DNA of 64,000 nt from a virus, in the IMG/VR virus record IMGVR_UViG_3300031111_000010, positions 1 through 64,000 of that record. One strand, 5' to 3'. The first letter of the stretch is position 1. Each line of letters begins with the position of its first letter. Both the position numbers and the translations under genes were made by a program. Below, piece by piece: positions 12,550 to 64,000 of this stretch. The notes below the pieces were generated by a model, which had not been told where the DNA came from, did not search any database, and saw nothing but the letters and a program-made list of their open reading frames with translations.

Positions 12550-12584
12550 GCCCATTCTCCTGTTTGACTATATAGAGATGCACA

Positions 12585-12776
12585 TCATATGCCAAAATCA
12601 TCATCAAATTGTTTTTTATCGTAAATCATCATTAATCTACAACATACAGCAATAAAAAATACAAAAAATTCAAGAGGTTGAAATAGAATATTAAATAATA
12701 TATCAATAATGGCAATCCAGAACAGACTAAATGAAAATCCCATTATAACTATGAAAAGTAGGTAAAAAAATAACAT
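12585..12776 (-). CDS. Small membrane protein, 63 aa
   Basis: Two long hydrophobic stretches (residues 2-28 and 32-48). ATG at 12776 follows AAAGG. Ends K-Q-F-D-D-D-F-G-I, a weak match to the shared C-terminal tag. Transcribed from the divergent promoter at 12838-12866. A palindrome-like TGACAATTTTTGTAA lies in its leader. Confidence 0.55.
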   Translation of the reverse strand: MLFFYLLFIVIMGFSFSLFWIAIIDILFNILFQPLEFFVFFIAVCCRLMMIYDKKQFDDDFGI

Positions 12777-12790
12777 TTTTTGGCAACCTT

Positions 12791-12805
12791 TGACAATTTT
12801 TGTAA
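12791..12805. promoter_or_regulatory. Degenerate copy of the GACAA-N3-TTGTC palindrome
   Basis: TGACAATTTTTGTAA has one intact and one altered arm of the palindrome found as tandem pairs at 34180 and 62798. It lies in the leader of the 63-aa gene. A single, imperfect copy, so its relevance is uncertain. Confidence 0.35.
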
Positions 12806-18555: not shown

Positions 18556-18583
18556 CTTATATCTTTATATATTGGTCTGTCAA
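18556..18583 (-). promoter_or_regulatory. Sigma70-type promoter of the 9-18 kb block
   Basis: TTGACA (18583-18578), 16-bp spacer, TATAAG (18561-18556), about 35 bases upstream of the TTG-start gene. Confidence 0.7.
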
Positions 18584-18813
18584 GAGAAATCTTTAGTGTA
18601 TATAAAAAATATATAAAATGGTCAAATAATATATATTTTTAGCAAGAAATTATGCATATTTCATACCAAAAACACCTGAAAACCCGCATGAATAGGGCTT
18701 ATATATAAAATATGTAATAAAAACAGCTATATAGGGGTGATATATGGGGGGGAATATATGCCGTACCCACCAAGACACGAAAAAAATTGAAAAAGTGCTG
18801 TGAGAATGATATC

Positions 18814-18830
18814 TGGCATAGGTCTTGCAT
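18814..18830 (+). promoter_or_regulatory. Sigma54-type promoter motif
   Basis: TGGCATAGGTCTTGCAT: GG and GC dinucleotides exactly 12 apart, as in the -24/-12 consensus TGGCAC-N5-TTGCW. No gene follows on the + strand, so any transcript would be non-coding or antisense. Confidence 0.45.
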
Positions 18831-18928
18831 CGAATCGCATTCAGAATATATATTTTTTATATACTCTTGATGCTCATGTGAATATATAATTTTTATATAT
18901 CTCATTTTTTTTTATTTTTTTTTTGGTA

Positions 18929-18945
18929 AGCAAGAGTGATGCCAA
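18929..18945 (-). promoter_or_regulatory. Sigma54-type promoter motif
   Basis: On the minus strand TTGGCATCACTCTTGCT, GG to GC distance 12. Points toward the 9-18 kb gene block. Confidence 0.5.
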
Positions 18946-19146
18946 CTTTCCATTTTGCGTTGCGATGCACAATCATGAATTTCCGAAAAAAATCTTTTTA
19001 TTTTTCCTTTATATATCAGGGTCTTATATATAACGTCTGATAAGATATAATATGTAAAATCGTGAGCTAAGTGCTTGATATATAAACGAATATAGGTTTT
19101 TTGAGGTTTTTTAATGGTAGGCATAATCTACCATAAATAGTGTGTA

Positions 19147-19163
19147 AGCAACTATCGTGCCAA
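19147..19163 (-). promoter_or_regulatory. Sigma54-type promoter motif, best consensus match
   Basis: On the minus strand TTGGCACGATAGTTGCT, identical to the textbook TTGGCACG-N4-TTGCT. Only 17 bases separate it from an opposite-facing copy at 19180. Confidence 0.55.
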
Positions 19164-19179
19164 CCCTGTATATCGGATA

Positions 19180-19196
19180 TTGGCACATGTATTGCA
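19180..19196 (+). promoter_or_regulatory. Sigma54-type promoter motif
   Basis: TTGGCACATGTATTGCA, GG to GC distance 12; divergent from the 19147 motif. Confidence 0.5.
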
Positions 19197-19218
19197 TATA
19201 TCGCTGAAATTGGCGAAA

Positions 19219-19235
19219 TTGGCATATTCCTTGCA
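19219..19235 (+). promoter_or_regulatory. Sigma54-type promoter motif
   Basis: TTGGCATATTCCTTGCA, GG to GC distance 12, followed by the GC-richer stretch to 19400 that could be a non-coding RNA. Confidence 0.5.
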
Positions 19236-19438
19236 TATAGCCGCATCCATAGGGGTCCACATGGTCCACCAGCGAAATCCATAGAACCCATAAGAGCCAT
19301 AAGCAGAAAGGCACATGCAGATTTTACTGAGTTAATTTTACTTGCAGGGGTGTCTGAGCTTGTGATAGACCGCACTATTCGCACACTTTCACTAACTCAT
19401 TGTCAGATTTTTTTCCAGATTCGCTATATATGAAAATT

Positions 19439-19475
19439 TTTTGGGAAAATTTTTGAAGAAAGTGCCTCAGAATGA
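19439..19475 (+). repeat. Imperfect direct repeat, copy 1
   Basis: Shares TTTTGGG(G)AAAA and AAAGTGCCTCAGAATSA with the copy at 19580. Role unknown. Confidence 0.6.
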
Positions 19476-19579
19476 TGTCCAGAGTGACTTTTCTGGTAAC
19501 TATCTGACTTTTTTAGACATATTTTCAAAGAATCGACCTGAAAACGGATTTTTGACCGTTTTATGACGGTTTAAAAAAA

Positions 19580-19615
19580 TTTTGGGGAAAAAATCGCAAA
19601 AAGTGCCTCAGAATC
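19580..19615 (+). repeat. Imperfect direct repeat, copy 2
   Basis: Second copy of the 36-bp element; a third partial copy (AAAAGTGCTGTGAGAATGAT) begins at 18791. Confidence 0.6.
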
Positions 19616-19719
19616 ACTATAATTATAAATATCTGATATCTAAGGAAATATCAAAATATATACAGAAATATATAAAAAAGTATATAAATTGATATCTTGT
19701 TGATTTCATTAATAAAAGT

Positions 19720-20037
19720 CTATGTTGGTGGGGGGTCAAGTATAGAAAATTCCTCAAAGGTAATAAAGTCTTTTTCTGCAAACCATTTTTCATGCCAACC
19801 AAAAGGATAGCCTTTCATTTTATGAGTATAGTTATGGAAATCATATTCTTTAAAGAAATGTGTTTCTCCCATCATCTCAATCATAGTGTTAGTTAATACC
19901 CAATCCAATTTTATTCTATTCAAGGTGATACTCATTCTTATTACACTACCGTCTTTATTCCATTTATCAGCTATAGGTTTAAAACGATTTTGGAATTGAT
20001 CTACTGTTATTAAGGTATATTTTATATATTCATTCAT
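19720..20037 (-). CDS. Small protein with extended C-terminal tag, 105 aa
   Basis: Near the end it reads E-K-D-F-I-T-F-E-E-F-S-I-L and then continues D-P-P-P-T, so the shared tag is followed by five extra residues. It is the last gene of the 19.7-33 kb block. The extra residues may come from loss of a stop codon. Otherwise unrecognised. Confidence 0.65.
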   Translation of the reverse strand: MNEYIKYTLITVDQFQNRFKPIADKWNKDGSVIRMSITLNRIKLDWVLTNTMIEMMGETHFFKEYDFHNYTHKMKGYPFGWHEKWFAEKDFITFEEFSILDPPPT

Positions 20038-29763: not shown

Positions 29764-30612
29764 TTAATAATCACTTGTAATCGTTAAATGAAAAGGCATG
29801 TCAGTCAGTTTCCTACGGGTCCATAGATAAGTATCCACATCACCAATATGCCATCCTAATTCTTCTCTCATCTTCTCACATACTCTAATTGTTGCTGCTC
29901 TAATCTGGATTTCCTCAAGCGAATTTTTGGGTATCAGTTTCCCTTCATATATATCTTCTTCTAATGAAGGTGAATATTGAAGGCACCCAAAATGCCTGAG
30001 AATTTTTGGTACTTGATAATCTGCTGGTACAGGTAATACTATATCTTTATACCATTCAAACTTACGGTAAATCTGAATAAAGAATAACGATGCTCTTTTT
30101 AAAAAGATATCAGATGCAAATCCTTGAAAGTATCTACACATCATATCAATATCAGCATTTTTATTAACTACTTCTCTGGCAAAGTTCTCACCCTTTTGAT
30201 CTTCCAGTAATTCCAATAGATGTCTTTTTCGTTCTTCAAGCATGGGAAATCTATTAACTGAAAGCAATTCAATCAAAGTATATATAACCTTAGAAAATCT
30301 TGTATCATAAGACTTGGATAGTTTAAATGCATACTCAAGGCATTCATACATTGCTGTAGAGGATACATTGTTAGGTCTGATATCAGATACACCATACCAG
30401 TAACAATAGTTGATTGAGCTTGCTACCAGTTCCTTTAATACTTCATTATATATACCTATCTGATACTTCTCATTATCATCAAAGAATTTCGGTGGTCCAT
30501 CTTTTCTCATTCTCTCAATTACTCTATCTACAGTAGACCAAGCTATTTTTACATATTCAGGTTTTGTAGCTAACGCCTGATCTGCAACTTCAAATACATT
30601 TTTTATAATCAT
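29764..30612 (-). CDS. Queuosine-salvage (Qng1/DUF2419) family protein, 282 aa
   Basis: Strong motif agreement with the queuosine 5'-phosphate N-glycosylase family: P-M-L-E-E-R-K-R-H-L, F-L-K-R-A, A-D-Y-Q-V-P-K-I-L-R-H-F-G-C-L-Q-Y-S, E-I-Q-I-R-A-A and M-P-F-H-L-T. Family members release the base queuine from Q nucleotides for reuse in tRNA. Length is close to the family's usual 300-340. Lies between tRNA-repair genes, so it probably serves tRNA wobble modification. A DNA-modification role is less likely without other deazaguanine genes here. Confidence 0.82.
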   Translation of the reverse strand: MIIKNVFEVADQALATKPEYVKIAWSTVDRVIERMRKDGPPKFFDDNEKYQIGIYNEVLKELVASSINYCYWYGVSDIRPNNVSSTAMYECLEYAFKLSKSYDTRFSKVIYTLIELLSVNRFPMLEERKRHLLELLEDQKGENFAREVVNKNADIDMMCRYFQGFASDIFLKRASLFFIQIYRKFEWYKDIVLPVPADYQVPKILRHFGCLQYSPSLEEDIYEGKLIPKNSLEEIQIRAATIRVCEKMREELGWHIGDVDTYLWTRRKLTDMPFHLTITSDY

Positions 30613-30624
30613 ATATTCTCCTTT

Positions 30625-30855
30625 CTATATTACCTTTCCATTGATTTCTTTTATAGGTCTTAAATGTCTTTTGGAAGATGTTACGCATATAGGATCAGGT
30701 GTTATCCATTTCAATCCACATGGACAAGTATAAACACACGCTTGATTCTGTATTAACATAGAATCACATTGTGGACAAAAATAAGCTACTGTATCTAATG
30801 CATGTTCATCTTCTTCTTGGGTTGTATCTGTTACATTTATTACATCATTTATCAT
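30625..30855 (-). CDS. Zinc-ribbon protein, 76 aa
   Basis: C-P-Q-C-D near residue 27 and C-P-C-G near 45 form a zinc ribbon; acidic N-terminus. ATGA overlap with the SLOG gene upstream. Unknown partner. Confidence 0.65.
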   Translation of the reverse strand: MINDVINVTDTTQEEDEHALDTVAYFCPQCDSMLIQNQACVYTCPCGLKWITPDPICVTSSKRHLRPIKEINGKVI

Positions 30856-31235
30856 ACTATTATAATTTCTCCTTCTGGATAAAATTTTCTGAACTTTTTG
30901 AGTGTGTCTTCGCTACCACCAAATTCTCTTTGGAGAACTTCTTTTAATGGTTCATGTGGTCTGACAAGACAAGCTATGATAATATCAGAAGTCTTAGCCA
31001 CTGATGTATTCCTTGCAAAGAATTCTTTTCTGGTTTTTTTCTTAGGTGGAAATAAAAGAATGGGAATGCCATAACCGAAAGCTATCTTTTCAGCAAAGGC
31101 ATCCCCACCTTGTGGACATCCACCACTGACTATCCAATCACCTTCTTGATAGATTTCAAAGAAGGCATCATGTACAAGTTGATAGTCAGTTCTGATATTT
31201 CGTTTTCTTGTTCCAATAATTCCTATTTTTTTCAT
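30852..31235 (-). CDS. SLOG/DUF2493-type Rossmann protein, 127 aa
   Basis: G-I-I-G-T-R at residues 4-9, then V-S-G-G-C-P-Q-G-G-D-A-F-A near 37-49, is the signature of the YspA/DprA-like SLOG fold that binds nucleotides or nucleotide signals. Members include LOG and TIR-partner proteins. Single domain; ligand unknown. One base separates it from RtcB, so they are co-expressed. Confidence 0.8.
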   Translation of the reverse strand: MKKIGIIGTRKRNIRTDYQLVHDAFFEIYQEGDWIVSGGCPQGGDAFAEKIAFGYGIPILLFPPKKKTRKEFFARNTSVAKTSDIIIACLVRPHEPLKEVLQREFGGSEDTLKKFRKFYPEGEIIIV

Positions 31236-31236
31236 A

Positions 31237-32448
31237 TCATCCTTTCACAACTGCTAACGGCTTAAGCTCCACGGCTATATCTACAAGGTCTTTTTGATTA
31301 TCCATGACGGTAGAAATATCCTTGTATGCTCCACTTGCCTCATCAAGATCAGATACGTTTCGAATACCATGGACAATACCCTGTTCATCCAGCTTCTTAA
31401 TCTCATCCTTCAGGTTCAACTTCTCCTTGGCCTTTGATCTACTCATCAATCGACCAGAACCATGAGAACAAGACTTGAAACTTTCAGAATTACCCTTACC
31501 AACTACAATGTAGCTCTTGGTTCCCTGACTACCCGGAATGATACCATACTCATCTTCATATGCTCTGGTAGCACCCTTACGATGCACCAGCACATTCTTA
31601 CCAAAATGATTCTCCAATGCAGCATAGTTATGATGAATGTTGATATTGGTATTCTTAGCAGCAGTATCAAACTGAACATCTACATGGTTTGATATAGCTT
31701 CCATTACTCTCTGCATCATCAACTGACGATTAGCCAATGCAAAGTTACAGCAATAGTTCATTTCCTGAAAATACATCTTTCCTTCTTTGCTATCGAAAGG
31801 AAGAAAAGCTAACTGCCAACTTTTAGGAACATTAGACTGCCATTTTTCATTCAATTCAATAGCAATCTTATTATAGTGAGTAGCAACCTTATTACCCAAG
31901 TTTCTACTACCAGAATGAATCATGATCCAAATGTAGCCATCACTACCCTGCTGGATTTCAATGAAATGATTTCCACCACCCAAAGTACCAATCTGCTTCT
32001 TAGCACTATCCCATTCATCATAGATAACAGTATTATTGAAGTCAAAAAAATCAACAGGTAAATTGGGAATATTATGATCATCTTTATTATGCTTGAAACC
32101 AACAGGCACCAGCTTACGGATATCACCCATGATCTTTTTCAAGATGGTCTTATCTAAGCTACCAGCAAACAGGGAAGTTCTTAAAGCTATCATACCGCAA
32201 CCGATATCAACACCCACGGCATTAGGCACGATGTAACCCTGAGTAGCCATAACACCACCAATAGGCATACCATAACCCTGATGCATATCGGGCATACCAG
32301 CAACATGATGGAAAACAAAAGGCAACATAGATAAATGCTCCATCTGTTCAAGAGCACCAGCTTCCACTTCACCTAACCATAATTTGATAGGCACTCGATA
32401 TTCACCATGCTTATATATAACATTGAAATTATTTTTTAACTGTATCAT
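31237..32448 (-). CDS. rtcB: RNA-splicing ligase RtcB, 403 aa
   Basis: G-V-D-I-G-C-G-M (Mn site), G-G-G-N-H-F-I-E, H-S-G-S-R-N-L-G, D-I-H/N-I-H-H-N-Y-A, R-K-G-A-T-R-A and S-C-S-H-G-S-G-R (the guanylylated His) are all present. Full-length for the shorter RtcB class. Joins 2',3'-cyclic phosphate to 5'-OH RNA ends, as produced by anticodon nucleases; a phage copy can restore cleaved tRNAs. GAGGAA ribosome site overlaps the upstream small gene. Confidence 0.95.
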   Translation of the reverse strand: MIQLKNNFNVIYKHGEYRVPIKLWLGEVEAGALEQMEHLSMLPFVFHHVAGMPDMHQGYGMPIGGVMATQGYIVPNAVGVDIGCGMIALRTSLFAGSLDKTILKKIMGDIRKLVPVGFKHNKDDHNIPNLPVDFFDFNNTVIYDEWDSAKKQIGTLGGGNHFIEIQQGSDGYIWIMIHSGSRNLGNKVATHYNKIAIELNEKWQSNVPKSWQLAFLPFDSKEGKMYFQEMNYCCNFALANRQLMMQRVMEAISNHVDVQFDTAAKNTNINIHHNYAALENHFGKNVLVHRKGATRAYEDEYGIIPGSQGTKSYIVVGKGNSESFKSCSHGSGRLMSRSKAKEKLNLKDEIKKLDEQGIVHGIRNVSDLDEASGAYKDISTVMDNQKDLVDIAVELKPLAVVKG

Positions 32449-33220: not shown

Positions 33221-33721
33221 TTAATCCCAATGGTTTTCGTAGTATTCACCACCATGAGAGAAGGTGAAATAACCCTTGCGATAGCTGCACTGTTCTTTTT
33301 TATTACCCTGCACGATGAAAGGATAAGAACCAATAAATGAAGTACCACTACCGAAATTTCTTACATGTAACCGGAACTCAGGACCAACAACCCTATTACC
33401 AGCTTTGGCTTTACCATTTCCACCAAATTCTTGACCATTGGTGATCGTTTCAACCATCCGACACTTGACGGTTTTACCAGTAGGAGAAACATCAATGATC
33501 TTGGCAAAATTATTAATGGTCATATTATAACCATATGAAGCATGAAGTTTTTTGCCTACCCATTCATGTTTCTTAACAGATTTCTTGACAGCTTTCTTGA
33601 TCTTACGGGTTTTCTTTTCTACCTTTTGAAATTCAGGCACTTCATCATCTCTCAAAGTAGTCAGACTGTTGATTCCTCTTGCCCTCAGAATTGCCATGTC
33701 TTTTTCGGTCAATCGGCTCAT
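33221..33721 (-). CDS. Hypothetical basic protein, 166 aa
   Basis: Lysine-rich linker (K-K-T-R-K-I-K-K-A-V-K-K-S-V-K-K) at residues 35-50, then a beta domain. C-S-Y-R-K-G-Y-F near the end. GAAAGGAC ribosome site. Own promoter 30 bases upstream. Possibly nucleic-acid binding. Confidence 0.65.
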   Translation of the reverse strand: MSRLTEKDMAILRARGINSLTTLRDDEVPEFQKVEKKTRKIKKAVKKSVKKHEWVGKKLHASYGYNMTINNFAKIIDVSPTGKTVKCRMVETITNGQEFGGNGKAKAGNRVVGPEFRLHVRNFGSGTSFIGSYPFIVQGNKKEQCSYRKGYFTFSHGGEYYENHWD

Positions 33722-33813: not shown

Positions 33814-34050
33814 TTATTTTTTGAGATACCGTTTCATAGCTGCCATGGCCTTTGCCTTTGTATCATAACCATGCATATTGTTCAATCTGCTGTTGAATCC
33901 TGCGTGACCAAAAGTAATAAACCATCTTTTGGTTTCAGGAAGCATGGCAACCGCATTTTCACAGTTAGCATCCCGGCAAAAACCAGTTTCGTAACAAGAT
34001 TTGGCAGAAAAAAGAATGTTGTTAAGGGATTCTTGAATCGGAATGCTCAT
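33814..34050 (-). CDS. Hypothetical protein under a sigma54-type promoter, 78 aa
   Basis: Start M-S-I-P-I-Q-E-S-L follows GAAAGGAC; the longer frame is rejected because it begins at the predicted transcription start. C-Y-E-T-G-F-C-R-D-A-N-C-E cluster near residue 20, basic end. Unknown. Its promoter faces away from the 34.3-kb operon. Confidence 0.6.
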   Translation of the reverse strand: MSIPIQESLNNILFSAKSCYETGFCRDANCENAVAMLPETKRWFITFGHAGFNSRLNNMHGYDTKAKAMAAMKRYLKK

Positions 34051-34091
34051 TGTTTTGTCCTTTCGGTTTGGTTTGAAGTTACTCATATATA

Positions 34092-34109
34092 TTGCAGTTG
34101 CTGTGCCAA
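34092..34109 (-). promoter_or_regulatory. Sigma54-type promoter
   Basis: On the minus strand TTGGCACAGCAACTGCAA, GG to GC distance 12. Predicted start about 34082 gives a 32-base leader with GAAAGGAC before the 78-aa gene. Confidence 0.6.
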
Positions 34110-34179: not shown

Positions 34180-34214
34180 TGACAAAAATTGTCAAACTTA
34201 TGACAAAAATTGTC
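34180..34214. promoter_or_regulatory. Tandem palindromes, candidate activator (enhancer) site
   Basis: TGACAAAAATTGTCA at 34180-34194 and TGACAAAAATTGTC at 34201-34214, 21 bp (two helical turns) apart. Sits midway between two divergent sigma54-type promoters, about 90-100 bp from each, where bacterial enhancer-binding proteins bind. Same arrangement at 62798. Confidence 0.65.
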
Positions 34215-34277
34215 CAGATAGTTATATACTTTACTCCGGTAAATTTGTAAGTACTTGATATTATTACAAGTGAAAAG

Positions 34278-34294
34278 TTGGCACAGGGTCTGCA
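34278..34294 (+). promoter_or_regulatory. Sigma54-type promoter
   Basis: TTGGCACAGGGTCTGCA, GG to GC distance 12. The predicted start is about 34305, next to the ATG at 34307, so the mRNA would be nearly leaderless. A poor sigma70 reading (TTGGCA-N17-TATGGC) cannot be excluded. Confidence 0.5.
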
Positions 34295-34306
34295 TATAAG
34301 TATGGC

Positions 34307-34540
34307 ATGAAAACACAAGATATAGAAAAGCTGACTATTCCTAAACAGTATGCTCAAATTGAAGATAAGACTTTTGAGATGCTTGAAGATGAATTGATGG
34401 ATGTATATAATAGGTATCCAGATTATAATGATCCTGAATATGGTGGCAAGGGTTTCAATGCAATGGTTGATCTTTTTGCTTCTGATGATTTTTACCATGA
34501 ACATTATGTAGCTAAAGAATATCTTAAACTGAAAGGATAA
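34307..34540 (+). CDS. Hypothetical acidic protein, 77 aa
   Basis: M-K-T-Q-D-I-E-K-L start has no ribosome site, consistent with a leaderless transcript. Acidic, Tyr-rich (Y-N-R-Y-P-D-Y-N-D-P-E-Y-G-G-K-G). Unknown. First gene of the only plus-strand accessory operon here. Confidence 0.6.
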   Translation: MKTQDIEKLTIPKQYAQIEDKTFEMLEDELMDVYNRYPDYNDPEYGGKGFNAMVDLFASDDFYHEHYVAKEYLKLKG

Positions 34541-34543
34541 AAA

Positions 34544-34771
34544 ATGGATATCATCGAAAAGATCATGAAAGAGCAGATGGGTTTTATTGTAGATGATAAT
34601 CAGCTTCTTCAGATTATCGCCATTGACCCTAATTATGAAATTCTGATTCGGGCAAATCTTTATCGTATAGTTGTACCTGCTTATAAAGTGGTGGAGAAGA
34701 TAAAGAAAATCAATGATGAAAAAAATAATCATGTTCGTGATATTTCTATTGGTTTTACCCGTATCGGTTAA
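34544..34771 (+). CDS. Hypothetical protein, 75 aa
   Basis: Helical, M-D-I-I-E-K-I-M-K-E-Q-M start resembling a coiled-coil dimer. GAAAGGATAAAAA ribosome site. Unknown. Confidence 0.6.
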   Translation: MDIIEKIMKEQMGFIVDDNQLLQIIAIDPNYEILIRANLYRIVVPAYKVVEKIKKINDEKNNHVRDISIGFTRIG

Positions 34772-34779
34772 AAAAGTTC

Positions 34780-34811
34780 TTGACAGGGAACATATTGTTT
34801 GATATGTTCCC
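34780..34811 (+). promoter_or_regulatory. Sigma70-type promoter with built-in operator palindrome
   Basis: TTGACA (34780-34785), 17-bp spacer, TATGTT (34803-34808). A perfect inverted repeat GGGAACATAT/ATATGTTCCC (34786-34811) fills the space from the -35 box through the -10 box, so a bound repressor would block polymerase. Confidence 0.7.
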
Positions 34812-34840
34812 TTCATAACCTCAAAAAAGGAGTGTGTAAC

Positions 34841-35758
34841 ATGACGTTTTTTCAAGCAATCGAAACTAAAGATGTAAACGTGGCTATGGAAGCAGGTAAC
34901 CATAACTTTGAAGCTATCAAAGAAGATTTGTTTACTGCTGATGGTCTTCGTATTCCCGATCATGTTGCTGTTCTCAATCAAAACACTGGTGATTATTTGG
35001 GTACAGTTGGCAGGGGTTACGAACCAGTTCAACCGGAAACATTCTATGAGTTAGCTGATGAGTTCATCGAATCAACTGATGCAATGATTGATGGTGTTCT
35101 CAATTTCAGGAATGGATCAACTATGGGTCTGTCCTTTCATATCGCAGATCGTGAGTATATCGCTGGTGATCCGATTTCACTCCGGTTCATGATGGTCAAT
35201 GGTTTTGATGGTTGGCAGGGTCTGAATGGTTTTGCTCCTACCAATCGGATAGCTTGTCTGAATGTATGTAATTCATCCAATCGTGTCTATAACCTGAAGC
35301 ATACCAAAAATGTTCTCAATCGTGTTCAGGTTGTCAAGAACATGCTCAAGTATTATCAGAATGAGATTGCATCATTTGATGATAAGATGAATTATCTTGT
35401 TGGACATCGTATGAATGAAGCAGAGGCTGTCAAGTGGTTTCGTTCTCTGTTTCCGAAACCTACTTCCCGTAGGTCTGAAACCATACTGGATAACAAGGTT
35501 GCGGTTTTTGTTGATTGTCTATTGCATGGTAGGGGTTCTGAAATTGCTGGTGTTCGTGGAACGTCTTACGGTGCTTTTCAGGCACTTACTGAGTATATCA
35601 ACCACCACCGTTCAGTTCGGGTAACAGAAGGTAGAGAAGAAGATGAAGTCCGTTTTGAAGCTATCCATTTTGGTACTGGTAACTCTCTTACTCAGCGTGG
35701 ATTGACTTCTCTTACCACTGGTTTCGGTTTTACTGCTGACGAATTTCGTATCGATTAA
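34841..35758 (+). CDS. DUF932 phage/plasmid-like protein, 305 aa
   Basis: L-G-T-V-G-R-G-Y-E-P-V-Q near residue 50, F-M-M-V-N-G-F-D-G and R-I-A-C-L-N are characteristic of the DUF932 (TIGR03299) family, widespread in phages and plasmids without known activity. ATG at 34841 follows AAAGGAGTGTGTAAC. Strong regulated promoter suggests abundant early product. Confidence 0.82.
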   Translation: MTFFQAIETKDVNVAMEAGNHNFEAIKEDLFTADGLRIPDHVAVLNQNTGDYLGTVGRGYEPVQPETFYELADEFIESTDAMIDGVLNFRNGSTMGLSFHIADREYIAGDPISLRFMMVNGFDGWQGLNGFAPTNRIACLNVCNSSNRVYNLKHTKNVLNRVQVVKNMLKYYQNEIASFDDKMNYLVGHRMNEAEAVKWFRSLFPKPTSRRSETILDNKVAVFVDCLLHGRGSEIAGVRGTSYGAFQALTEYINHHRSVRVTEGREEDEVRFEAIHFGTGNSLTQRGLTSLTTGFGFTADEFRID

Positions 35759-40575: not shown

Positions 40576-42414
40576 TTATGGTGTTGATGCTGCAACCAGT
40601 TCGGTAAAACTTGCTCCTGTCTTAGTAGCAATCAAGTTCAGCACGATAAATTCTGCTGCTCTTGTAGGTTTGATATAAATATCACACCAAAGTTCATTTC
40701 GATCAATTCTCTCTGCTGAGTTGTTTCTCTCATCACAGACAATTAGGTAATCGAAAATTCCCCTTCTTGCTACGATATCTCTCAAGAAAGGATCGATCAT
40801 ATTAATGATAGCCAATCTTGTGAAGGTATCATTTGGTTCAAACAGGAAGTACTTCAATGCGGTACTTACCGCTTTACCGATTATGATAAATAGTCTTCTC
40901 ACATTAACTCTATTAAATGCTGAAGATTTATCAAGCATGTTTTTCTGACCCCATACAACCTTTCCTTGACCCGGAAAGCTCACGATAGGATTCAGACCAT
41001 TCTTATAAAGAATATCTCTTTCACCCTTTACAGGATTCCAACCAAGTTTCCTTACATTATTTATTTGACCTCTATTCAAACCTGCTGGTGCAAACCATGC
41101 TTCTGCTACATCGTCAGTATTTGCGTAAATACCAGCAACATGTCCTGAAGCTGGTATCCATCTATGTTTAGCATTCCACTTATCATAGACTTCTAACCAG
41201 TTTGCATAAGTAGCAACATAACTTGTGTTGATATTCAAATTATATGTATCATGATTTCCAAATCTATAATCTCTACAATCAGTAGCTTCACTACCTTTAT
41301 TATTTACTACTAATGATTTAGGTACATCCAAAACACCAACTGCATCTGCTCTTGCAATACAGGTAGTATTAATATATTCCTTAACAGTAGTAGATTTACC
41401 AGAATCTATAAAGATATTAACATCAATTGATTCTGGATCAGCGTATAAATCAATTGCCTCCATAATATCAGCATCTTGTACAACATCACCGTTACCTCTT
41501 GCTCCACCACCAAGTGATTGATAATCTGCCATTCCCAATGTAGAGAAGTCTTTATTCTTAAATAATGCTGTAGTTGCTACTCTAATATAACTTGAGTTAT
41601 TATTAATCCAATTCTCAACGTAGATATTAGCACCAGTATCATCAACTTCATCAGGATCAGAACTTACAAGATGAACTTCTACTATTTCATAGGGAACCGG
41701 ATTCTTATTAATATTTTCTTGTTTTGCTCTCTTTACTAGAACAAGAAATTGTTTATCATTATCAAAAGAAGCATCTACTTCTTGATCTAAATCATCATAT
41801 AATGTTGCTGATAATCCAAGACTTGCTGCTGCTGTTCCTTGTCTTACACCATTATAAGCATTTCTACCTACAATTGCTATTTTAACATAGTTACCCCATT
41901 CCCCTCTACTTGAAGCAATAAATGCCATATCCTGACCATTCTCTGGTCTACCTGTATCGAATGTGGTATCCTCATCACCAAAGTAATCAGGGTCTTTTGA
42001 ATCAAAATCACTTAACTGATATCCGTTTGCTGTTGTATATGCTGTAAACACATCCCCTCCTGCTGAAACTGCTGTTGCCATTGTTCCATAACTACCCGCA
42101 AAGGTAGCTGATGGAGCTAATACTCTTGTACAGTACAAATTTTGACCGAATTGAAGAAATCCTGCTGCTGCCATGATATCTTCATATGATTGACCTCTCT
42201 TTGAGAAACCACCTGCTGCTACTGATAATGCTTCCTCTGGTCTACCAAAGATATCAACTAATTCATCAATATCGTTTACCAATTGTGTCTTTAACTCTGG
42301 ACCTTTCCATGTATCTCTAAGGGTGATAACACCGATAGATGTTGCTACTGCTGGAATGGTAGTAGTTAAATCAATTTCGTTTACGTCCACCAAAGGACTT
42401 AGATACATTGCCAT
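40576..42414 (-). CDS. Tail sheath protein, T4 gp18-like, 612 aa
   Basis: N-terminal Y-L-S-P-L-V-D-V-N-E-I-D and S-x-G-V-I-T-L-R-D-T-W-K-G-P-E domain, variable middle, and conserved C-terminal region (W-N-P-V-K-G-E-R-D-I-L-Y, F-L-F-E-P-N-D-T-F-T-R, I-K-P-T-R-A-A-E-F-I-V-L). Contractile sheath of a myovirus tail. ATG at 42414 follows GGAGGAAAAT; the upstream ATG contains that ribosome site and is rejected. Its first 110 residues are duplicated in the next upstream gene. Confidence 0.93.
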   Translation of the reverse strand: MAMYLSPLVDVNEIDLTTTIPAVATSIGVITLRDTWKGPELKTQLVNDIDELVDIFGRPEEALSVAAGGFSKRGQSYEDIMAAAGFLQFGQNLYCTRVLAPSATFAGSYGTMATAVSAGGDVFTAYTTANGYQLSDFDSKDPDYFGDEDTTFDTGRPENGQDMAFIASSRGEWGNYVKIAIVGRNAYNGVRQGTAAASLGLSATLYDDLDQEVDASFDNDKQFLVLVKRAKQENINKNPVPYEIVEVHLVSSDPDEVDDTGANIYVENWINNNSSYIRVATTALFKNKDFSTLGMADYQSLGGGARGNGDVVQDADIMEAIDLYADPESIDVNIFIDSGKSTTVKEYINTTCIARADAVGVLDVPKSLVVNNKGSEATDCRDYRFGNHDTYNLNINTSYVATYANWLEVYDKWNAKHRWIPASGHVAGIYANTDDVAEAWFAPAGLNRGQINNVRKLGWNPVKGERDILYKNGLNPIVSFPGQGKVVWGQKNMLDKSSAFNRVNVRRLFIIIGKAVSTALKYFLFEPNDTFTRLAIINMIDPFLRDIVARRGIFDYLIVCDERNNSAERIDRNELWCDIYIKPTRAAEFIVLNLIATKTGASFTELVAASTP

Positions 42415-42464
42415 ATTTTCCTCCATTTTCAGATATTAATCTGAGCTTTTCTATCCTTCATATA

Positions 42465-42472
42465 TATTTATA
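42465..42472 (-). promoter_or_regulatory. T4-type late promoter TATAAATA
   Basis: Exact octamer on the minus strand, about 50 bases upstream of the sheath start. Confidence 0.75.
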
Positions 42473-42498
42473 TTTTTTAAACTTTTTTTTCAGTTATG

Positions 42499-43377
42499 TT
42501 ATGCTGGTAGTACTGACGATTCACTTGAACTTGAGCTTAATGAACTTGAACTTAAAGAACCACAAACCAAGAACTCAATATTTGTTACACTAAATGATGT
42601 ACTATCAGCATAATTAGTAAATGTTAATAGAGTTAAGTCATTTGAAGTCCATTCAATATCAAATGTTCCCATACCAGAAGGAGTAACAGTACCATATTCA
42701 CCAGCAGAAACATTAGTTGATAAAAGTTCATTAGTTGGAAAATCAAAAGAACGTAATTCCATTGTTAGTGGAATATCCGGTGTCCATGTAACTCTTATTT
42801 TACTAGGTCTAAATCCAGATGCCCATGGCGATGGCTCAGTCAATGGAGCTAAACCAACACCCGGATAAGCGAAAGTAACACTATCCCATTGTTCTAATTC
42901 AGAATTCCATGTTGCTCCCCCTTCAAGATCCTCCCATATTGTATTATCAAAATAGGTTTGCCAAGTAGGAGGACCAAATGGACAAGATGAACTACTGCTA
43001 TTACTAGTCGAACTACTGCTATTGCTTCCCCCTAATTCTTCTACTGTTCCATAACAACCTGCAAAGGTAGCACTTGGTGCGAGTACTCTTGTACAATATA
43101 AATTCTGTCCAAATTGTAAGAAACCAGCAGCAGATAGTAAATCTTCATATGATTGACCTCTCTTTGAAAATCCGTTTGCTGATACTGATAATGCTTCCTC
43201 TGGTCTACCAAAAGTATCTATCAATTCATCAATGGAATTTACTAATTGAACTTTTAATTCCGGTCCTTTCCATGTATCCCTTAATATAATAACTCCTATT
43301 GACGTAGCAACAGCAGGTATTGTTGTGCTTAAATCAATTTCATTTACATCTACAAGGGGTGATAAATACATTGTCAT
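42499..43377 (-). CDS. Sheath N-terminus fused to a lectin-like domain, 292 aa
   Basis: Residues 1-113 are nearly the same as the sheath N-terminus (M-x-M-Y-L-S-P-L-V-D-V-N-E-I-D-L through A-P-S-A-T-F-A-G), with high nucleotide similarity. A Ser/Asn linker (117-135), a jelly-roll-like domain (136-270) and a poly-Ser tail follow. The sheath middle and C-terminal domains are gone. Inference: it inserts into the sheath or collar lattice and displays the lectin. AGGAGAATAAT ribosome site. Confidence 0.85.
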   Translation of the reverse strand: MTMYLSPLVDVNEIDLSTTIPAVATSIGVIILRDTWKGPELKVQLVNSIDELIDTFGRPEEALSVSANGFSKRGQSYEDLLSAAGFLQFGQNLYCTRVLAPSATFAGCYGTVEELGGSNSSSSTSNSSSSSCPFGPPTWQTYFDNTIWEDLEGGATWNSELEQWDSVTFAYPGVGLAPLTEPSPWASGFRPSKIRVTWTPDIPLTMELRSFDFPTNELLSTNVSAGEYGTVTPSGMGTFDIEWTSNDLTLLTFTNYADSTSFSVTNIEFLVCGSLSSSSLSSSSSESSVLPA

Positions 43378-61998: not shown

Positions 61999-62034
61999 GA
62001 TAAATCTCCTTTGTTAATGATTAGTGTTTCGTTA

Positions 62035-62063
62035 TTCCTATCAGATCGTTTCGCCATTGTCAA
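62035..62063 (-). promoter_or_regulatory. Sigma70-type promoter overlapping a hairpin arm
   Basis: TTGACA (62063-62058), 17-bp spacer, TAGGAA (62040-62035). The -35 lies in one arm of the hairpin at 62059-62084. Confidence 0.65.
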
Positions 62064-62092
62064 GGGGTTTTTACACCCCCTGACATTTTTTT
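62059..62092. terminator. Imperfect hairpin with T-run on the + strand
   Basis: GTCAAGGGG/CCCCCTGAC stem with one mismatch; eight Ts follow on the + strand. Separates the 176-aa and 59-aa genes. Confidence 0.5.
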
Positions 62093-62622
62093 TACTGGTT
62101 GATTACTTCGGACTCAACCTTACCTTTCGGACCAAGAACAAAGCTCATGTAAGCATCGTTCATATATCCACGAACAAAGATTTTCTTTCCAAGTTTGCTA
62201 ACAGAATCAATATTTTCTGTAACTGCCAGCAGATGATTGTATGCTTTCCACTGTGAAGGAGTGAACTCACTTTTGGACATCTTGTAGTCACCATACCGAT
62301 CTTTAACTACGATAAACTCATCATTTTCATCCCACTCGACTTCATCAAAACCGATACCAGCTACCATGATCAGCGTACCATCTTCCATCTCCATCAGGTC
62401 ACCAACACTGGTAGACCGACTTTCCTCTACCTTATAGACACCATCATTTTCCCACCATGCGGTATCGATGTGATTGGTTTTCTGAAAGGCAACACCAAGA
62501 TCGTTTCCAACGACTTCAGCTACCAGTTTATAATTGGATTTAACAGGCTTGTAAGTACCCTTTTCGGCAAAGTGAAGATTGCTGTTAATAGCCCAATTGG
62601 TAGTGTGATAAACTTTGATCAT
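62092..62622 (-). CDS. Hypothetical protein under a sigma54-type promoter, 176 aa
   Basis: ATG at 62622 follows AAGGAGAAACCAAA; the upstream frame start lies in the leader. M-I-K-V-Y-H-T-T-N start, beta-rich middle, G-F-D-E-V-E-W-D-E-N-D-E acid stretch. No family recognised. Monocistronic and regulated like the 34-kb genes. Confidence 0.65.
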   Translation of the reverse strand: MIKVYHTTNWAINSNLHFAEKGTYKPVKSNYKLVAEVVGNDLGVAFQKTNHIDTAWWENDGVYKVEESRSTSVGDLMEMEDGTLIMVAGIGFDEVEWDENDEFIVVKDRYGDYKMSKSEFTPSQWKAYNHLLAVTENIDSVSKLGKKIFVRGYMNDAYMSFVLGPKGKVESEVINQ

Positions 62623-62674
62623 TTTGGTTTCTCCTTGGTTTATGGTCGCTTTCGTTTTCATTTGCCTATATATA

Positions 62675-62692
62675 ATGCAGACCGTGTGCCAA
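62675..62692 (-). promoter_or_regulatory. Sigma54-type promoter
   Basis: On the minus strand TTGGCACACGGTCTGCAT, GG to GC distance 12. Predicted start near 62665 gives a 43-base leader with a good ribosome site. Confidence 0.6.
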
Positions 62693-62797
62693 GATTGAAA
62701 AAAATCATAAAAAAATATAAGTAGTTGGATTATAAAGAAAAAAACCCAATAGGGATCAAATGACCCCCATTAGGCTTTTCGTATTTTAGGGAATTTG

Positions 62798-62833
62798 TGA
62801 CAATTTTTGTCAAACATATGACAATTTTTGTCA
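62798..62833. promoter_or_regulatory. Tandem palindromes, candidate activator site
   Basis: TGACAATTTTTGTCA at 62798-62812 and again at 62819-62833, again 21 bp apart and about 130 bp upstream of the sigma54-type promoter. The second overlaps the SpoVR stop codon. Confidence 0.65.
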
Positions 62834-64000
62834 TAAGTCTATTTCAATATTCGAATCAATCTCTTTAGACTTATTTGCTACATACTTAAATTTCATCTTG
62901 TTTTTAATGGTTTCCAGATTACATTTTTCACCCCACAAAAACTGAATATGTTCAAGGGTTTTTTGTGCATACTCAGGATCAAGATCAGCACCAATATGTT
63001 CATGTTTGAGTAACAATTCACCCTGTTTGTGATAATTACCATCCATAACGAACACTTTTGGAATACCACTATGTGCAAAACTTCTAATAATAATTTGGCA
63101 GATTTCTTTTGCTGTATTATCTGTGATTACTACTTCTTCCATAAAAACATTGGATTGAATTGCATACATATATAAATCCAATTTTCTAACCAGTTTTGGA
63201 GTTAAGAAGTTATGCATAAACATCCAATCATTACTTGTACGGAGAACTTTAAACATCTTCTCCATACCCTTCATAGATTTATCATCGTAGTTCATCTTTA
63301 AATCATGGTCGGTAGTTTCATCATAATCTTTACCATGTTGACCTTTATTCCAACGATCTACAATATCTTCCCACATTTCACATCCTATCAAATAGGGATT
63401 CATGCTGAAAGGATTTTTTGATTTAACAAGAGAATTGCTATAGTTACATTCAGCATGTTCAGTAGCTGTAAGCAATCCTTCCCGAAATAACTGCCTGAGA
63501 ATTCTTTCATGCCAGAAGGTAGCAAATCCTTCATTCATATATTTGGTTTTGATATTCGGCCAAACATACTGACCCCATGCTCTGATAATTTCAAGAATAT
63601 CTTTTTGCCATGTTGAAAGGTTTCGGGAATGATCAATAACATACCTGATTAAATCTTCAGTAGGTTCAACAGGAGTTTTATTCTTCAAAGCAACATACAG
63701 AGCATTGTTGTATCTTTCCCTTTCCATATCGGCCTGAGAATCATCTTCAAATAAATCCATGAATTCAGTAACAGATTTATCATGTTTCTTCTGTTTCTTC
63801 TGTTCAAATATACGTTCTATTTTTTCATCTTCAGTTTCTTGACTTAACCAAGGATTTGAATGAAGCATAATTGAATGACCAGCATCAATAGTAGATTCAA
63901 CCAAATCGATACCATACTTATTAATATAATCCTCAATTCGATTGGATGCATTGCTTAATCTACTAGCAATGTTCTCATCATTCTCAACATGATACTGATT
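62831..64000 (-). CDS. SpoVR-family protein, 5' end outside window
   Basis: M-N-E-G-F-A-T-F-W-H-E-R-I and N-P-Y-L-I-G-C-E-M-W-E-D-I are the defining SpoVR motifs. The frame is open through the window edge, so the visible 389 codons lack the N-terminus. Bacterial SpoVR/YcgB is linked to stress and sporulation; its biochemical role is unresolved. A phage copy is unusual. Stop codon TGA lies in a regulatory palindrome. Confidence 0.85.
   Translation of the reverse strand, partial: NQYHVENDENIASRLSNASNRIEDYINKYGIDLVESTIDAGHSIMLHSNPWLSQETEDEKIERIFEQKKQKKHDKSVTEFMDLFEDDSQADMERERYNNALYVALKNKTPVEPTEDLIRYVIDHSRNLSTWQKDILEIIRAWGQYVWPNIKTKYMNEGFATFWHERILRQLFREGLLTATEHAECNYSNSLVKSKNPFSMNPYLIGCEMWEDIVDRWNKGQHGKDYDETTDHDLKMNYDDKSMKGMEKMFKVLRTSNDWMFMHNFLTPKLVRKLDLYMYAIQSNVFMEEVVITDNTAKEICQIIIRSFAHSGIPKVFVMDGNYHKQGELLLKHEHIGADLDPEYAQKTLEHIQFLWGEKCNLETIKNKMKFKYVANKSKEIDSNIEIDL

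Follow-up and report, generated by a model that had tools for sequence, protein, structure and literature searches.

The locus raises the question of what a pair of identical palindromes does upstream of the sigma54-type promoter at 62.68 kb of a viral DNA, and which regulator reads it. The window, i.e. the whole 64,000-nucleotide stretch of DNA analysed, is part of an 81,176-bp virus record (G000). At 62.8 kb, TGACAATTTTTGTCA occurs twice without mismatch, 21 bp from start to start and with a gap of 6 bp, and the TGGCA of the minus-strand promoter lies 106 bp from the end of the nearer box and 127 bp from that of the farther one (Table 1). The first-pass annotation had described two palindrome copies again 21 bp apart, about 130 bp upstream of the promoter; both copies were exact (starts at 62798 and 62819), and the distance given was a fair approximation. 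The promoter motif that it had written as TGGCA-N6-TGC takes the form TGGCA-N7-TGC (TGGCAC-N5-YTGC), and the copy at 12791 that it had considered single has a partner with 3 mismatches at 12771, 20 bp away.

Table 1. Boxes, promoters and adjoining features of the window; functional names are predictions.
Feature	Coordinates	Strand	Remarks
Distal enhancer box TGACAAAAATTGTCA	62819..62833	-	exact match
Proximal enhancer box	62798..62812	-	exact; 21 bp from distal box, 106 bp from promoter
Terminator hairpin and U run, end of spoVR transcript, between boxes and promoter	62739..62780	-	by folding
sigma54 promoter TGGCACACGGTCTGCA	62676..62691	-	0 mismatches to TGGCACNNNNNYTGCW
176-aa ORF driven by 62.68-kb promoter	62092..62622	-	homologues under same promoter in G009 and L183
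Phage SpoVR gene	62831..64000, on to record position 64345	-	Pfam SpoVR, 6e-99
Box of second pair	34180..34194	.	exact
Box of second pair	34201..34215	.	one end mismatch; 21 bp away
sigma54 promoter TGGCACAGCAACTGCA, leftward	34093..34108	-	0 mismatches; boxes 71 and 92 bp upstream
sigma54 promoter TGGCACAGGGTCTGCA, rightward	34279..34294	+	0 mismatches; boxes 63 and 84 bp upstream
Leftward unit, first ORF (78-90 aa, no family)	33814..34086	-	followed by 166-aa ORF 33221-33721
Rightward unit	34307..35758	+	ORFs of 77 and 75 aa (no family), then DUF932 protein
Degenerate box	12771..12785	.	3 mismatches
Near-exact box	12791..12805	.	1 mismatch; 20 bp from 12771 box
Weak sigma54-like site TGGCATATGATGTGCA	12579..12594	-	2 mismatches, GTGC replaces YTGC; 176 bp from degenerate pair

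Single boxes with up to 3 mismatches were near chance (13 vs. 8.1 expected). In the whole record of 81,176 bp, 5 boxes had one mismatch or none, against a mean of 0.5 in dinucleotide shuffles, and strict TGGCAY-N5-YTGC sites numbered 8 (0.3 in shuffles). Strong pairs spaced 19-23 bp occurred twice in the record and in none of 200 dinucleotide shuffles, and 40 Markov resamples yielded no pair in which one box had 1 mismatch or none and its partner 3 or fewer. The sequence TGGCAC-N5-YTGCW, with GG and GC in fixed register, was found at the three promoters listed without mismatches in Table 1. All strong pairs of the record (2/2; 3/3 including the degenerate one) were upstream of sigma54-type promoters. 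The view of the first-pass annotation that the recurrence of spacing, sequence and position reflects a real regulon was supported by the wider search for 21-bp pairs and sigma54 motifs (see below), which placed the pairs non-randomly relative to promoters.

The second pair, at 34.2 kb, is located between divergent sigma54 promoters that both face outward. The DUF932 protein of the rightward unit (34841-35758) matched its family at 3.9e-23. The element at 34.17-34.31 kb gave weak short matches only (E of 0.4 or worse) in a DNA search against named phages, and 62000-63904 gave none.

At 62.8 kb, the first 3 bases of the distal box are, on the minus strand, the TGA that ends the phage spoVR. The stretch 62735-62790 folded at -26.5 kcal/mol, and hairpins were also present in two relatives (L111 and L183). 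That the palindromes themselves act as a terminator or hairpin was rejected, as a separate hairpin terminator is located at 62.74-62.78 kb and the spacing and the sigma54 link point to protein binding. Pfam and PHROG searches with the 176-aa ORF downstream of the promoter gave no match, and its predicted structure had a mean pLDDT of 36.7, a model of no use. Upstream of spoVR are a DUF444 (YeaH-type) gene (Pfam, 4e-95) and a PrkA (YeaG-type) gene (7e-109). The SpoVR/DUF444/PrkA trio occupies 62831-67784 of this T4-like phage record and is kept in the relative G009 at 69-77% identity; in Escherichia coli the yeaGH operon is sigma54-dependent.

The large terminase of the record is of T4 type (Terminase_6N, 1.6e-21; Terminase_6C, 1.2e-11), by which the record is classed as a T4-like phage. 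It was matched by 2,523 INPHARED records, all at <60% identity, cyanophages being the best among the matches listed (~36%). The record is probably incomplete, since it has 81 kb and the T4-type records listed have 167-229 kb.

The order of spoVR stop codon, box pair (20-21 bp) and sigma54 promoter was common to the window and three relatives. In L111, whose terminase is 78% identical, the pair is at 383/404 and the promoter at 504; in G009 (a contig of L031 and L118; SpoVR 69% identical), the boxes are 119 and 140 bp from the promoter; in L183, the boxes are at 417 and 437 (20 bp apart) and the promoter at 558. By coordinates, the distal box started at the spoVR stop codon (TGA or TAA) in all four phages. 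A further relative, L110, ends before the region and is uninformative. Alignment of the four had 27 of 30 columns invariant in the boxes and 8 of 10 in the specified promoter positions, compared with 26/106 between proximal box and promoter and 23/77 downstream. Homologues of the 176-aa ORF were found in G009 and L183, and none was found in L111. The 34.2-kb layout is repeated in a further contig (G016), where the two boxes are 20 bp apart, sigma54 promoters lie on either side and face both ways at distances of 96 and 92 bp, and a DUF932 homologue (59% identical) is near the divergent promoters.

Scanning IMG/VR for box pairs separated by no more than 28 bp returned 52 stretches from 47 distinct places. 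Pair spacings were 16, 19-23, 32-35, 37-38 and 40-43 bp, with none at 17-18 or 24-31 bp, classes that argue for enhancer behaviour. A strict sigma54 motif pointed away from the pair at 21/47 viral places and toward it at 0/47 (random control 0.24%), the other 26 places having no strict motif within 200 bp. One box with a sigma54 site at 38-68 bp was found in 46 viral stretches, and in 4 with a scrambled box. An exact box with a strict sigma54 site occurred at 56 viral loci, which fell into 34 clusters when grouped by DNA and into 22 when grouped by protein content, these 22 having no detectable proteins in common within the stretches examined.

Among ten proteins from ten box contigs, 7 matched PHROG families with a named function and 3 had no match. 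The matches included a head-tail adaptor (L042), a large terminase (L148), a head protein (L015), small terminases (L012 and L046), an anti-restriction protein (L125) and a CobT-like protein (L130; best family of unknown function). A strict sigma54 site accompanied the box in L012, L042 and L148, and a pair without one was present in L015 and L046. Against named phages, a protein of L144 had no match, and the relatives of the L042 portal and the L125 anti-restriction protein were <60% identical. Related viral contigs with box and sigma54 promoter (L125, L126, L132-L134, L137, L146, L147 and L153) have an anti-restriction (ArdC-type) gene after it wherever the stretch is long enough. Bacterial contamination of IMG/VR was rejected as the source of the viral pairs, with a pilin near only 1/47 of them and phage proteins in L012, L015, L042, L046 and L148.

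In one 30-kb contig (G027), all six sigma54 sites were preceded by a box having 2 mismatches or fewer, mostly at 55 bp (random positions 14%). In another (G032), such a box was present at only 2/10 sigma54 sites (random positions 11%), so the box is not used by every sigma54-rich phage. This 70-kb contig (L159, L160) has ten perfect sigma54 promoters, whereas the reversed control gave none, and most of the ten lack a good PilR-type box; this phage relies on sigma54 by way of degenerate sites or sites of another kind.

The box was also found in bacteria. Scanning 84,980 species genomes for a pair spaced 19-23 bp returned 51 stretches from 50 distinct places, by their titles mostly Desulfobacterota and Acidobacteriota, with Moraxella and others too. 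A type IV pilin gene within 500 bp, reading away from the pair, was present at 28/50 places and at 0.8% of random positions in the same loci (~68-fold enrichment), and 22/50 places had no pilin within that distance. A strict sigma54 motif pointed away from the pair at 21/50 places and toward it at 1/50 (random control 0.4%), and 29/50 had no strict motif within 200 bp. The symmetric consensus was similar in both sets (viral agTGACAAt.aTTGTCAct; bacterial a.TGACAAtttTTGTCA.t). An activator gene was detected by motif search in only 8/51 genomic loci. In four loci (L060, L068, L095 and L107), an NtrC-type activator gene had its 3' end within 90 bp of the pair or in contact with it; three of these (L068, L095 and L107) have activator, pair and pilin in a row. 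These activators matched NtrC-family models generally, none of the models shown scoring above cut-off and no PilR model being among them.

In the sections of the literature cited here, Geobacter pilA, which is under PilR control and has a promoter for RpoN, directly follows pilR (PMC2725144), Xylella fastidiosa pilA1 is sigma54-dependent, probably with PilR/PilS (PMC3224663), pilin genes are targets of the sigma54-dependent regulator DVU2114 of Desulfovibrio (PMC3333781), and Neisseria pilE uses Npa and an upstream activator sequence (PMC6528607). Given its pilR-pilA arrangement, a PilR-type enhancer is the best reading of the box. Two features expected of such an enhancer were observed: the putative dimer sites are in helical phase, at a distance of 21 bp from each other and 63-127 bp upstream of the promoter, and the same site stands before a pilin gene beside an NtrC-type activator gene. 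The PilR-type name is weakened by the Pseudomonas PilR site hallmarks quoted in PMC6058289 (TGT-N11-AGA and GTCT elements), which, compared by eye, are not the same string as TGACAA-N3-TTGTCA. The exact box form is also not universal for PilR, as an exact box with a sigma54 site was found in 1/369 Gammaproteobacteria genomes, compared with 7/38 box-pair genomes (8 matches). As a separate observation, L109 (Lachnospiraceae) has four tandem TGACAAAAATTGTCA boxes at 1654-1731, in 21-bp steps, near phage-type genes; a strict sigma54 site is lacking there, and the same palindrome may serve another regulator.

Taken together, the box pairs are probably enhancers for a host NtrC-type activator, likeliest PilR of the PilS-PilR system, that would drive sigma54 promoters of a T4-like phage (probability about 0.72, judged from sequence comparisons). 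A paired switch like that before a bacterial pilin gene suggests that the phage reads the host's pilus control for some of its own genes. We infer PilR binding to the phage boxes, a piliated host and an effect of the driven genes.

Assignment to the host depends on the source of the activator. The sigma54 activator domain (PF00158) was not detected in the 81-kb record, which is incomplete, nor in any of 50 other viral records (1.46 Mb, many of them fragments), and all 14 control genomes matched; the activator is thus probably the host's, and an activator encoded by the phage was rejected as a candidate on this result. Such an activator would have to sit in the part missing from the record, and phages often carry regulators of their own. 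The same box before bacterial pilin genes also speaks against this reading, and its probability is very low. A host activator other than PilR, with a shared or similar site, would leave the promoters under host sigma54 control all the same. The generic NtrC-family scores of the box-adjacent activators and the genomic places with no pilin nearby (22/50) would fit this, but the enrichment of pilin near the pair and the three loci with activator, pair and pilin adjacent favour PilR, and another host activator is considered unlikely. RtcR, considered since the phage encodes RtcB, was dropped because the box precedes pilin genes.

A different kind of explanation would take the palindromes for operators of a repressor or other DNA-binding protein and the sigma54-like motifs as incidental. 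Pairs without a strict sigma54 site, missing at 26/47 viral places and exemplified by the fourfold L109 array near phage-type genes, are in agreement with it. However, the orientation of the sigma54 motifs relative to the viral pairs (away at 21/47 compared with 0.24% at random, never toward), the distance of at least 63 bp between boxes and promoter in the record, too far for simple occlusion, and the joint conservation of box and sigma54 motif in four phages make operators highly improbable.

With PilR as the activator, the sequence of events would begin as the phage enters a host making type IV pili. PilR phosphorylated by PilS would bind as dimers to the two boxes, two helical turns apart, loop over the 60-130 bp spacer, including the spoVR terminator at 62.74-62.78 kb, and remodel sigma54-RNA polymerase waiting at TGGCAC-N5-YTGC. 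The 176-aa ORF (62.1-62.6 kb) and the divergent units (33.2-34.1 and 34.3-35.8 kb) would then be switched on, and perhaps the unit at 12.4-12.6 kb. The phage may benefit because entry through the pilus would favour hosts in which PilR is active; alternatively, the pilus may be a target of the small proteins that are driven. A broader proposition, that PilR tapping would be a recurrent strategy of many unrelated phages, some with regulons of their own (G027), that time early, anti-restriction or packaging genes by pilus building, is tentative and falls slightly short of an even chance.

Bacterial pilA promoters under PilS-PilR and sigma54 (Geobacter, Pseudomonas and Xylella; Npa for Neisseria pilE) have enhancer boxes upstream of TGGCAY-N5-YTGC as here, and the box consensus of the examined genome contigs is similar to that of the phage; they differ in driving pilin, whereas here phage genes would be driven, with no gene for the regulator next to them. 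In cyanophages, genes under the host PhoR-PhoB system likewise have phage promoters with host response-regulator sites, several genes being affected, and binding of PhoB to promoters of cyanophage S-PM2d was shown (PMC10976474). The same paper cites the earlier case of P-SSM2 pstS and cautions that boxes predicted in phages do not always hold up. That system responds to phosphate, with no sigma54 described in the sections of PMC10976474 used here, whereas the present enhancer is NtrC-type, sigma54-dependent and matches a pilin enhancer. The Gifsy-1 prophage and the RtcR-sigma54 regulon of Salmonella also link a phage to a host sigma54 activator, but in the part of that work cited here prophage genes affect a host operon (PMC9879122), and the present proposal is that the host controls promoters of the phage. 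A literature search, with subscription papers largely outside its reach, found no report of PilR boxes or PilR-driven promoters in phages. Exploitation of a host two-component system by phages is already known from PhoBR in cyanophages.

Phages commonly use type IV pili as receptors. By reading PilR, a phage would tie the expression of its genes to the condition of its own receptor system as well as to surface contact and biofilm growth, and the box would give a sequence-based handle to predict a host with PilR and sigma54 for an uncultured phage. Phage use of host two-component systems would be extended from nutrient stress (PhoBR) to motility and surface sensing, and sigma54, rarely discussed for phages in the literature found, would be brought into phage gene control.

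Elsewhere in the window, an Rfam search returned tRNA only. The ~1.1 kb at 18560-19720 have little convincing coding sequence, repeated AAAGTGCCTCAGAAT elements and five strict sigma54 sites (18814+, 18929-, 19147-, 19181+ and 19220+); no PilR-type box was found in this cluster at 18.6-19.7 kb, which perhaps serves small RNAs or another activator. At 29764-32448, within the leftward gene block, the phage encodes an RtcB RNA ligase and a protein of queuosine salvage. At 40576-43377, neighbouring ORFs of 612 and 292 aa have near-identical starts and both match one 608-aa protein of G016, which suggests a partial duplication.
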